Below are positions 3,446 to 7,203 of a DNA stretch of 64,000 nt, piece by piece (positions within the stretch are counted from its first letter, which is position 1; each line of letters starts with the position of its first letter). The stretch comes from Methanosarcina barkeri 3 (GTDB lineage Archaea > Halobacteriota > Methanosarcinia > Methanosarcinales > Methanosarcinaceae), in NCBI RefSeq assembly GCF_000970305.1, contig NZ_CP009517.1, forward strand, positions 2,480,001 to 2,544,000, given 5' to 3'. Below the pieces are notes generated by a model. That model did no database searches. It was not told where the DNA came from and saw only the letters and a list, made by a program, of their open reading frames with translations. A program made the position numbers and the translations under genes.

Positions 3446-3763
3446 TCAAAGACCTACATCCCCTGTGCGTATCGTATATGCATTGTCAACGGGGATGACA
3501 AAAATTTTACCGTCCCCTTGATGACCGGTGTATGCTTTATATTTGATAATTTTAGCAACTTCTTCAACATGCTCATCTTCTACAACTAAAATAAGCATGG
3601 TTTTAGGAAGCTCATCATAGTGTACTGTCCCGATCGTGATTCCATTTTGTTTTCCACGGCCGAATACATCTATTTTTGTTAATGAAACAAATCCCCCCTC
3701 TGCAAGCCCTTCTATAACGTCATCAGCGGCTTCGGGACGTATTAAAGCTTTGATCATTTTCAT
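3446..3763 (-). CDS. anfI1: PII-like nitrogenase regulator NifI1-type (AnfI1)
   Basis: A 105-residue GlnB-family protein: KMIKALIRPE, GRGKQNGI (T-loop base) and TGHQGDGKIFVIPVDNAYTIRTG (B- and C-loop). An upstream in-frame start at 3790 is rejected because an AGGAGG sits 7 nt before the ATG at 3763. It is the first gene of the visible anf operon. In related operons nifH normally precedes nifI1; here it does not. Expected role: post-translational ammonium switch-off together with AnfI2. Confidence 0.92.
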   Translation of the reverse strand: MKMIKALIRPEAADDVIEGLAEGGFVSLTKIDVFGRGKQNGITIGTVHYDELPKTMLILVVEDEHVEEVAKIIKYKAYTGHQGDGKIFVIPVDNAYTIRTGDVGL

Positions 3764-3773
3764 ATTAATCCTC

Positions 3774-4195
3774 CTTTCACCGCCGGACAAACTTTGTCAC
3801 ACGAAACATCATTCGGCGGCAAATGAGGTTTTGTGGTGTACAATGAAGTTTTATGTTTTCTAGTGAATGAGATCTTATTCGTGAGATTTTGCAATGGTAT
3901 TTAAGTGATCAATCCTTGCCCAGATCTTGTGATTACTTTTTCTCCGTAATCCATATCCAGAAGCTTTATGGCAACAAAAGTTTCTTTTCGATAATTTCAA
4001 ATGCAAGCTTGCCTCTTCCTTTTTTTCGGTTACACAGATTATCGTAATCAACAAAAAGTCGGACTTTATTTCTGCAGCATTTTGTTCCGGCATATAGCGA
4101 ATTGTTCGAGTTTTAATAATCTTTCAATGTGTTTTAACCTCCTTTTGTACTTTTACTCGTTATGTTACTTTAGACATAATGTATATTTATAATAC
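3774..4195 (-). promoter_or_regulatory. Putative anf promoter and long leader without anfH
   Basis: On the minus strand a TATA-like box TTATAAATATAC lies at 4192-4181. Transcription would start near 4160 and run about 400 nt before anfI1. A strong Shine-Dalgarno AAGGAGGT at 4144-4137 is followed after 8-10 nt only by ATT or TTG: the TTG frame stops after four codons and the ATT frame after about 20. A 72-codon ORF at 4093-3875 has no recognisable features. The arrangement looks like promoter plus ribosome site with the first gene (expected anfH) missing. Box and start site are predictions. Confidence 0.45.
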
Positions 4196-5003
4196 AGGAA
4201 AGCAGTAACCTATTTCCTATTTATTAGTATATATAACTTCCCCCAATCTCGGGTTTGATATTGTTTACTCTTTAGAATAGGAACGTTACAATATTTTAAA
4301 TTTAATATAAAAGATGTGCTTAAAAATAAATTATGTACATTATTTAATTAGCATTTTAAGCTTATTTATTGTTAATTTAAAATGACTGGACATTCAAGTA
4401 GTTTAATAAGTCTTTACTTGTTAGTTCAATATAGAGAAAAACTAGATATGTTTGCATATACCGATCACATTTAACTATAAAAAGTCAAAATGAACGTTAA
4501 GGTAATTGATAATGTTTCCTCATTCAAAATACTTTTTTTTGAACATATCAGTCATTATGATCTCAGAATTTACCATTCAGGGGATAACACTTTTTAATTT
4601 TACCTTTTAAGGTATTTCATGTGCTTAGCTTCAGATTATAAATCTCGAGAATTTACTGAGGTTATTCCCTATGTAGTCAACTTATATATAATAATATAAC
4701 ACTTCTACTCAAAAAATTGATGTCGATATGTTTATATTTGAGTTGTAAATCTATTTCCTAATACAAGTTCTTCATACAAGTCGTATGAGTTTGAACGAGA
4801 AGACAGTTTACTGGTGACAAGCGTGAATCTGAAAATCTACTAACTGGTAAACTACAGCAAAAACTTGAACACGGTTTTTTTTCTATTGGGATCTGGAAAG
4901 TTATGGTCTCTCCTGAATTCCCCCACCCGTCTTCCAGGATGCAGGGAAAAAGGCGTATTCCTGAAAACCTGTTGACATTGAAGTACTAGTTCATAAAAAT
5001 GGT
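4196..5003. other. AT-rich intergenic region
   Basis: About 0.8 kb of very AT-rich DNA between the divergent anf operon and the fwdB-like gene. I see no convincing ORF, tRNA or long repeat. It probably contains promoters in both directions. Confidence 0.6.
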
Positions 5004-5062
5004 ACAGTGCTGTGAAATTACTGTGCACTGTTCATTGGCATGAAAGTGAACTGCTGTACAGC
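5004..5062 (+). promoter_or_regulatory. Inverted repeats upstream of fwdB-like gene
   Basis: Two symmetric elements lie 115-175 nt before the fwdB-like start. The first has arms ACAGTGC (5004-5010) and GCACTGT (5025-5031) with a 14-nt spacer. The second is a perfect 10-bp palindrome GCTGTACAGC at 5053-5062. They could be operator sites or leader RNA structure; no known regulator is recognised. Confidence 0.35.
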
Positions 5063-5177
5063 AAACAGAACAATGTTGAGAGGTCAGTAAAATGCAAGAT
5101 GAGAAGTTACTATCGATTTTTTTTGAAGAATACACCGAAAATACAATATCAAGGTTTTGTTCCGGAGAGCAGAGAGT

Positions 5178-6581
5178 ATGATTCACAAAAACATAGTCTG
5201 TCCGGTTTGTGGAGCTGCCTGCGACGATATCCAGATTGAAATCAAGGATGGAAAGATTGAAACGAAAAACGTATGCAAGATGGGAATTTCCAGGTTTAAG
5301 GAGATTACAAGTCCCAGGCGGTTTAAACAGCCCCTTCTAAAGTTCGGAGGGAAATTAAGACCGGTTTCCTGGGACGGGGCCCTTCAAATAGCTGCAGACA
5401 TTCTGACTTCGGCGAAGCGTCCTCTGATTTACATAGGCAGTGAAACTTCCTGTGAAGCATATGAAGTTGGGCTCATGATCGGAGAATATCTTGGCGCAAT
5501 TGTTGATACAGTCGGCAATGGGGCCATAGTGATGGGAACTCAGGAAGCCGGAAAAGTCGGTGCTACTGAAGGACAGAAGAAAAACAAGGGAGATCTTATG
5601 GTTTACTGGGGAACAAACCCACTTGAATCCATGCCCAGACAGATGTCCAGATATGGGGTTTTCCCCAGAGGTTACTGGACAAAGCGAGGGCGTTTTGACA
5701 GGACAATCCTTACTGTAGACCCAAGAAAAACACTAACTGCTAAAGCTTCTGACCTTCAGGTGCAGCTTAAACCCGACTCAGACTATGAACTGGTAAGTGC
5801 ACTGTTGACACTTTTGAACGGAAGAGTTCCCCATCATTCAGTAGAGGAAATCACAGGAGTTTCCGTTCATGTTATGGAAGAGATGCTTGATTTGATGAAG
5901 AACTGCAACTTTGGGACTATCTCAGTAGGGGCTGGACTGTCTTCATCTCCTGGGAAGTACAGGAATATCGAAATTGCCATGAGCCTTGTGAAAGAGCTGA
6001 ACAAATATTCCAAATTTACCCTTGGAATTATCCGCAGTCACTGCAACGCGGCAGGCTTTAGCCAGGTTGCTTCCTACATGTACGGTTACCCTTTCGGGCT
6101 TGACTTCATGCGAGGCCACCCGCGTTATAACCCTGGAGAATTTACAACCGTAGATTTGCTTCGAGAAAAAGACATAGATGCAGCTTTTGTAATATGTGCC
6201 GATCTTTTGAGTCAGATCCCGCCTGACTGTGCAACTTACCTTGAAGAAATTCCTTTGATCTGCCTGGATACAATTCCCTGTCCAACTACGTCTCTCTCAG
6301 ACATTGTACTCCCTGGAGTCATTGACTCTATGGAGTGTGAAGGGACTTTCTACAGACTTGACGATGTGCCTGTTTATTTTGAACCGTTCCTTGATTCACC
6401 GTTTAAATTCACCCAAAGTAACGAAGACACCTTAAAACAGCTTTTTGAAAAAATAAAAGAGAAAAAAAATCAGGATAGTATTTTTCAGGACAGTGTTTTT
6501 CCGTTTACATATATTGATGATCTTAAAACTCAAAATTGCTCTTCGAGATCTTATACTTCGAGCGGCCAGTTAAGTTTTTGA
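5178..6581 (+). CDS. Formylmethanofuran dehydrogenase subunit B paralogue (orphan)
   Basis: A 467-residue protein of the FwdB/FmdB (molybdopterin oxidoreductase) family. It has an N-terminal [4Fe-4S] motif C8-x2-C11-x3-C15 and C33, then WGTNPLESMPRQMSRY and PRGYWTKRGRFDR, which match pterin-binding blocks of FwdB. FwdB normally binds the W/Mo bis-pterin with a Cys or Sec in a VCHG-like segment; here the aligned segment at residues 111-117 reads TVGNGAI, so the ligand appears to be Gly. No other fwd/fmd subunits are nearby. The ATG at 5178 is chosen over a TTG at 5157 because of the purine-rich GGAGAGCAGAGAG just before it. It may be a non-catalytic or altered-specificity paralogue. Confidence 0.82.
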   Translation: MIHKNIVCPVCGAACDDIQIEIKDGKIETKNVCKMGISRFKEITSPRRFKQPLLKFGGKLRPVSWDGALQIAADILTSAKRPLIYIGSETSCEAYEVGLMIGEYLGAIVDTVGNGAIVMGTQEAGKVGATEGQKKNKGDLMVYWGTNPLESMPRQMSRYGVFPRGYWTKRGRFDRTILTVDPRKTLTAKASDLQVQLKPDSDYELVSALLTLLNGRVPHHSVEEITGVSVHVMEEMLDLMKNCNFGTISVGAGLSSSPGKYRNIEIAMSLVKELNKYSKFTLGIIRSHCNAAGFSQVASYMYGYPFGLDFMRGHPRYNPGEFTTVDLLREKDIDAAFVICADLLSQIPPDCATYLEEIPLICLDTIPCPTTSLSDIVLPGVIDSMECEGTFYRLDDVPVYFEPFLDSPFKFTQSNEDTLKQLFEKIKEKKNQDSIFQDSVFPFTYIDDLKTQNCSSRSYTSSGQLSF

Positions 6582-6681: not shown

Positions 6682-7203
6682 ATGATAACGAGTTATAAAG
6701 ACAAAAACCCGAAAATCTCAAAGACAGTTTTCGTTGCAGACTCTGCTGATATCATCGGAGATGTAGAAATTGGGGATTCTTCAAGTATATGGTTTAATGC
6801 TACGCTTCGAGGAGACCAGAATAAAATAAAAATCGGAAACCGAACAAGTATCCAGGATAATGTGGTAATTCATGTAGATTCTACTAATGAAGTACAAATC
6901 GGGGATAATGTCACTATAGGACACGGTGCAGTACTCCATGGTTGCAGAATCGAAAATAATGTGATTATAGGAATGAACTCTACAGTATTGAACGGTGCTG
7001 AAATAGGGAAAAATTCCATTGTCGGTGCAAATGCACTAGTTCCTGAAGGAAAAAAATTTCCTGAAAGAAGCCTGATCATTGGAGTTCCGGGAAAAGTAAA
7101 AAGAGAACTCGAAGAAGTAGAAATCGAGGCTATATTAAGAAATGCTGAAGAGTATGTAGAACTTACAAAGGAGTACAAGGAAAAGAGTAAAGTTAATGTT
7201 TAA
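6682..7203 (+). CDS. Gamma-class carbonic anhydrase, CamH-like
   Basis: A 173-residue left-handed beta-helix protein built from hexapeptide repeats (IGDVEIG, IQIGDN, IGHGAVLHGC, VIGMNSTV, SIVGANALV). Putative zinc ligands H64, H81 and H86 and the supporting R43, D45 and Q58 are all present. It lacks the N-terminal acidic loop extension of Cam, which fits the shorter CamH type known in Methanosarcina. Likely reaction: reversible CO2 hydration as a trimer. A GGAGAG Shine-Dalgarno at 6671-6676 favours the ATG at 6682 over the TTG at 6679. A more general YrdA/PaaY-like transferase fold protein is the alternative. Confidence 0.8.
   Translation: MITSYKDKNPKISKTVFVADSADIIGDVEIGDSSSIWFNATLRGDQNKIKIGNRTSIQDNVVIHVDSTNEVQIGDNVTIGHGAVLHGCRIENNVIIGMNSTVLNGAEIGKNSIVGANALVPEGKKFPERSLIIGVPGKVKRELEEVEIEAILRNAEEYVELTKEYKEKSKVNV

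Follow-up and report, generated by a model that had tools for sequence, protein, structure and literature searches.

The fmdB3 gene of Methanosarcina barkeri 3 encodes a paralogue of the FmdB/FwdB subunit that has lost the Mo/W-ligating Cys and several other active-site residues. Judged from its pattern of change, FmdB3 is best read as a non-catalytic FmdB pseudo-subunit, possibly working in an Fhc-like formyl-methanofuran-hydrolysing complex with shared A, C and D subunits, a reading to which we assign a probability of roughly 40%. The gene was found in the window, i.e., the whole 64,000-nucleotide stretch of DNA that was analyzed, as an ORF with an ATG at 5178 and its end at 6581. The 467-residue product matched the NCBIfam model TIGR03129 (FmdB/FwdB) over the full profile (1–421/421) with 586.8 bits, against a cut-off of 327.8, and it was nested within Methanosarcina FmdB in the tree. 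It could also be aligned with the solved FwdB chains in the PDB. The same genome encodes two operon FmdBs (loci L005 and L006), to which FmdB3 is 75–76% identical, and one W-type FwdB with Cys (L007). The first-pass annotation, made from the letters alone, had described an orphan FwdB paralogue without the metal-ligating Cys, and the PDB alignments and the genome's own paralogues agree with that description. An AlphaFold model of FmdB3 had a mean pLDDT of 65.8, lowest in the cofactor loops; the pocket and interfaces were not readable from this weak model, and a fold search with it gave FwdB kinship only. The features in the coding sequence are:

5178–6581, + strand: fmdB3, Cys-less FmdB paralogue, 467 aa, TIGR03129 match, 14 intact orthologues
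5199–5276, + strand: N-terminal [4Fe-4S] motif, Cys 8, 11, 15 and 33, all four present in 14/14 FmdB3
5505–5528, + strand: former metal-ligand loop, D110-TVGNGAI (111–117), with Cys replaced by Gly113, His by Asn114, and three residues deleted after D110 (from alignments)
6033–6041, + strand: R286-S287-H288 motif (canonical RGH, 288–290 in M. wolfeii), Gly replaced by Ser
6213–6215, + strand: Gln346, where His is found in 39/39 diverse canonical FwdB

The ligand loop reads DSNATVCHGP and DSNATICHGP in the operon FmdBs (L005 and L006, respectively) and D---TVGNGA in FmdB3 of the window, which thus also has Ala for Pro. The sequence TVGNGAI at residues 111–117 is as originally reported; the PDB alignments and the paralogues place Gly113 opposite the ligand Cys and Asn114 opposite His119 (M. 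wolfeii numbering). The three-residue deletion before TVGNGA had gone unnoticed. A shifted Cys or Sec as ligand was ruled out, as residues 103–122 contain no Cys and the ligand codon is GGC; the alignment offers no different Cys in the loop for the ligand position, and it was the presence of such a Cys that the first-pass annotation had named as fatal to its claim. A sequencing error was likewise ruled out, since the deletion occurs in nine genomes (eight besides the window) and Gly-Asn without the deletion in five intact orthologues. Canonical sequences had Cys-His at this site in 112 of 112 cases, whereas none of the 14 FmdB3 proteins had the Cys. The ligand position was occupied by Gly, Asp or Val in the copies with the deletion (clade A) and by Gly in those without it (clade B), followed by Asn in place of His in all 14.

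The losses extend to other parts of the active site. In the numbering of the genome's operon FmdB, Cys116, His117, Gly290 and His349 were altered in 14/14 FmdB3. By alignment, C116 matches the metal ligand, H117 the M. wolfeii gate His119, and 289–291 the Arg-Gly-His near the metal. In M. wolfeii FwdB, His119 is the proposed gate, and His290 has been named as a metal-surrounding residue (PMC11656701). Most FmdB3 proteins had R-S-H in the latter motif, and the Gly expected of a competent FmdB was lost in all; Arg289 and His291 were mostly kept in clades A and B, with erosion in single members. The scaffold fared differently. From 39 diverse canonical sequences we defined 66 invariant columns, and FmdB3 retained the family residue at 55 of them. 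Within FmdB3, these columns were more constrained than the others (57/66 vs 195/364, Fisher p 2.6e-7). The four FeS cysteines and the pterin-region blocks were intact, as first described. Such a pattern of change suggests a pseudoenzyme that has kept its fold and probably still holds some cofactor, and FmdB3 is unlikely to act on CO2 or formate by the known mechanism.

Molybdenum can be held without a protein ligand, as in the arsenite oxidase AioA, and FmdB3 might be an active Mo/W enzyme with such altered coordination and a new substrate. The kept pterin-region blocks, FeS cysteines and, for the most part, Arg289 and His291 would suit such an enzyme, as would the invariance of the Asn that replaces His. 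However, the ligand position varies between Gly, Asp and Val, so that no substitute ligand is conserved, and the loop deletion, the universal loss of Gly290 and His349, the erosion of Arg289 and His291 in single members and the absence of a D subunit of its own make this explanation improbable. The earlier suggestion that the metal is bound differently is weakened in the same way, since all copies have replacements opposite His119 and Gly289 and at another invariant His.

The survey covered 31 Methanosarcina genomes and the species-wide genome collection. The orphan copies formed a single clade of 14 intact orthologues, found only in Methanosarcina. Clade A comprises the nine copies with the deletion, including that of the window, and clade B the five intact copies with Gly-Asn, plus one frameshifted copy (L064). 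In the maximum-likelihood tree, A and B were monophyletic (SH-aLRT 99) inside Methanosarcina FmdB. A third clade, with Tyr at the ligand position, from two bog/fen genomes, was sister to A+B with an SH-aLRT of 85, a moderate support to which long branches could contribute. Clade B presumably includes the M. acetivorans copy, and we take the previously listed fmdB3 genes of M. acetivorans and M. barkeri to belong to the same family as the window gene, going by presence and genome. Rohlin and Gunsalus, who made that listing, gave both M. acetivorans and M. barkeri a stand-alone "fmdB3", and M. mazei none (PMC2838876). The name is thus known; in the passages of that paper on the gene, fmdB3 is a presence/absence entry only and the missing Cys goes unremarked. 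Published RNA-seq of M. barkeri MS includes several fmdB copies, among which fmdB3 was not told apart.

The median dN/dS was 0.157 in clade A and 0.137 in clade B, compared to 0.039 and 0.089 in two sets of operon FmdB. By region, it was 0.10–0.16 in the core and 0.65 in the C-terminal tail (431–467). The gene is therefore relaxed but clearly under purifying selection, and the dN/dS of about 0.15, together with the intact ORFs, disfavors a pseudogene. A slowly decaying duplicate without present function is a related alternative. The two- to fourfold relaxation relative to the operon copies would be consistent with it, as would the losses: an N-terminal remnant in one genome (G006), a frameshift in another (G002), and no copy found in 13 genomes. 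However, a dN/dS of 0.14–0.16, intact ORFs in 14 genomes from across the genus, the invariance of all four FeS cysteines and an upstream element that has changed less than synonymous sites (see below) argue that slow decay is quite unlikely. The extra FmdB copy is probably a non-catalytic helper rather than junk. Two kinds of degraded copies were seen in passing. An N-terminal fmdB3 remnant (L137, 7198–7452; 85 aa, 62% identity), which adjoins an intact modABC, is a recent loss, and a separate fmdB pseudogene with several stops (L114, 8001–9357; L122, 6558–7914) still has Cys-His at the ligand site.

The DNA directly upstream of fmdB3 records the origin of the gene:

4926–5102, + strand: remnant of the fmdE 3′ end and the fmdE-fmdF junction, frame broken, ~70% DNA identity to canonical operons
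5092–5181, + strand: short ORF (MQDEKLLSIF...) with an FmdF-like start, ending at the old fmdD-fmdB junction and overlapping the fmdB3 start
4866–5102, + strand: conserved non-coding leader, in the same 15 Methanosarcina genomes as fmdB3
4806–4852, + strand: predicted stem-loop with compensatory base-pair changes (RNAalifold)

In addition, 5163–5200 matches the fmdD-fmdB junction of canonical operons, and two other loci (L128 and L064) had recognizable FmdE sequence or translation upstream of fmdB3. The matches show fmdB3 to be the remnant of an fmdEFACDB operon after internal deletion of F-A-C-D; since the arrangement is common to all copies, a single ancestral deletion event is inferred. The original statement that no other fwd/fmd subunit is near thus holds for the 64-kb window as far as whole genes are concerned, but overlooked the remnants of fmdE, fmdF and fmdD. 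No fmdA, fmdC, fmdD or fmdF was found in the window or near any FmdB3 locus scanned, and FmdB3 may still use A, C and D partners encoded elsewhere.

Highly similar copies of the leader were present in the 15 genomes that carry fmdB3, including the frameshifted G002, and in no others. Its core had a p-distance of 0.02–0.05 within clade A, compared to an fmdB3 dS of ~0.4, and the dead fmdE stretch, now non-coding, is more conserved than fmdB3 itself. The alignment fold (RNAalifold) contained a long, nearly invariant helix at ~4968–4980/5071–5083. When the leader was folded as a single sequence, the result was not significant (z −1.3 and −0.4), so it is the alignment from which the proposed RNA structure derives, and an Rfam search of the leader returned chance-level matches only. 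The simplest guess is that the dead-fmdE element acts as a 5′ leader.

Two neighbors of fmdB3 in the window are relevant to its possible partners:

6682–7203, + strand: gamma-class carbonic anhydrase homologue, His 64/81/86, the downstream neighbor in some strains
3446–3790, − strand: nifI1, first gene of a divergent nif cluster, named by resemblance

The gene described at first as CamH-like is a genuine gamma-class carbonic anhydrase neighbor, but the link is only occasional: it lies downstream in the window and in L037, L038, L118 and L121, and nearby in L130. As a general key partner it was rejected, since other fmdB3 orthologues adjoin modABC or fdhAB. The nif cluster adjoins fmdB3 in the window, L037 and L117. 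In two genomes, fdhA-fdhB follow 89–91 nt downstream on the same strand (L116, 3762–7138; L117, 3427–6740), and fmdB3-fdhAB is likely to be one transcription unit there. The FdhA proteins of both loci scored over their cut-off and kept the Cys-His pair.

An association with modABC was frequent; it lies divergently upstream of fmdB3 in six loci (L116, L117, L118, L123, L128 and L130). Further, a modC remnant lies by fmdB3 in L121, and in L137 the fmdB3 remnant is the partner of the intact modABC. In L123 and L130, modA is absent or fragmentary, while fmdB3 still has modC and modB (fragmentary in L130) beside it. This association raises the possibility of a regulatory or cofactor-handling pseudoenzyme that binds FeS and possibly bis-PGD, and that senses, stores or delivers Mo/W-pterin, thereby adjusting either the uptake of Mo or the canonical fmd operons. 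Continued constraint on the FeS and pterin-region residues and the conserved, possibly structured leader would agree with such a role, and the genus offers a precedent in CdhA3, an orphan paralogue suggested to be a CO sensor and regulator (PMC4652020). On the other hand, FmdB3 lacks a DNA-binding domain or any other effector domain, modABC is not next to the copy in the window, and the linkage may simply be inherited, as modBC also adjoin a canonical fmd operon of this genome (L005). We consider a sensor or carrier somewhat unlikely; a ligand-free Mo enzyme and slow decay are both less likely than this or the hydrolase complex.

The sister clade provides a second Cys-less FmdB, here within a complete fmdFACDB operon, in two bog/fen Methanosarcina MAGs, which may miss another fmd operon. 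The Tyr codon TAC occupies the ligand position (fmdB at L058, 7995–9302, and L125, 922–2229; also L063 and L126). Tyr-FmdB has lost the Cys, Arg289 (His or Asn instead), Gly290 and His349. The other subunits encoded at L058/L125 kept nearly all invariant residues (FmdA 110/111, FmdC 76/77, FmdD 33/34) and FmdF all seven cluster motifs, and a comparison of the two genomes gave a dN well below dS for each of the four genes. The second genome (L063/L126) has one in-frame TAA, at fmdA codon 448 (L126), which may reflect decay or a sequencing or assembly error.

In the favored reading of FmdB3 as a pseudo-subunit, the protein would fold as FmdB and hold on to its [4Fe-4S] cluster, perhaps also to the pterin, but be unable to interconvert CO2 and formate. 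It would then associate with A, C and D subunits from the canonical operons, giving a complex with a working FmdA and a dead redox site; this is the least certain step. As happens in the bacterial Fhc complex, whose FhcB has lost the metallopterin and does not oxidize formate (PMC11656701), formyl-methanofuran would be hydrolyzed to formate and methanofuran rather than oxidized to CO2. The focus of the losses on the active site, with the scaffold kept, speaks for a pseudo-subunit, as does the Tyr operon, where a dead B site lies beside a conserved hydrolase FmdA. Hydrolysis by FmdB3 with shared A/C/D is proposed tentatively, as it fits the Tyr operon, the fdhAB linkage, the sharing of an A subunit in M. 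marburgensis, where FwdA is also used by the Mo enzyme (PMC3087415), and the formate made by M. acetivorans, which has no formate dehydrogenase genes (PMC4652020). Against it, FmdB3 has no A/C/D of its own and is linked to fdhAB in two genomes only; unlike FhcB, it retains the FeS cysteines and pterin-region residues; the Tyr operon has an intact polyferredoxin, superfluous for a pure hydrolase; and the modABC linkage and conserved leader would be just as well explained by a role in regulation or cofactor handling. In its fullest form, the proposal would make both the Tyr-FmdB operon and an A/C/D-borrowing FmdB3, the latter under a structured RNA leader derived from dead fmdE, archaeal formyl-methanofuran hydrolases that could explain formate release by species without formate dehydrogenase, which we regard as unlikely in its entirety.

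FmdB3 shares the FeS motif, most invariant residues and the overall fold with canonical FmdB/FwdB (TIGR03129; 5T5I, 8RJA, 7BKB), and differs in lacking the ligand Cys, the gating His and operon partners and in having Gly290→Ser, His349→Gln and the loop deletion. FhcB of the methylotroph formyltransferase/hydrolase complex (6S6Y) is also a non-catalytic FwdB homologue with a lost metal site; however, it has lost the cofactor entirely and sits with FhcACD, whereas FmdB3 stands alone, and the two are only 14–15% identical (a fold match), FmdB3 being closest to FmdB. The Cys118-less "Molybdop" clade of HdrA-FdhB clusters (PMC12054007) is another Cys-less MopB-family group of Methanosarcinales predicted to be non-catalytic, but it groups near FdhG/FhcB rather than FmdB and is linked to hdrABC-mvhD-fdhB. 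CdhA3 of M. acetivorans resembles FmdB3 as an orphan paralogue of a catalytic subunit with a suggested regulatory role, but it belongs to the CO dehydrogenase family and has no sequence relation to FmdB3.

The FmdB3 proteins score above the equivalog cut-off and are automatically annotated as FmdB even though the known mode of metal ligation is not available to them; gene counts therefore overstate CO2-reducing capacity. The Tyr-FmdB operon constitutes a natural experiment on the need for a Cys ligand. If FmdB3 is a regulator, Methanosarcina would have a second orphan paralogue of a catalytic subunit serving as a sensor; if FmdB3 is part of a hydrolase, it would provide a directly testable origin of formate in the genus.
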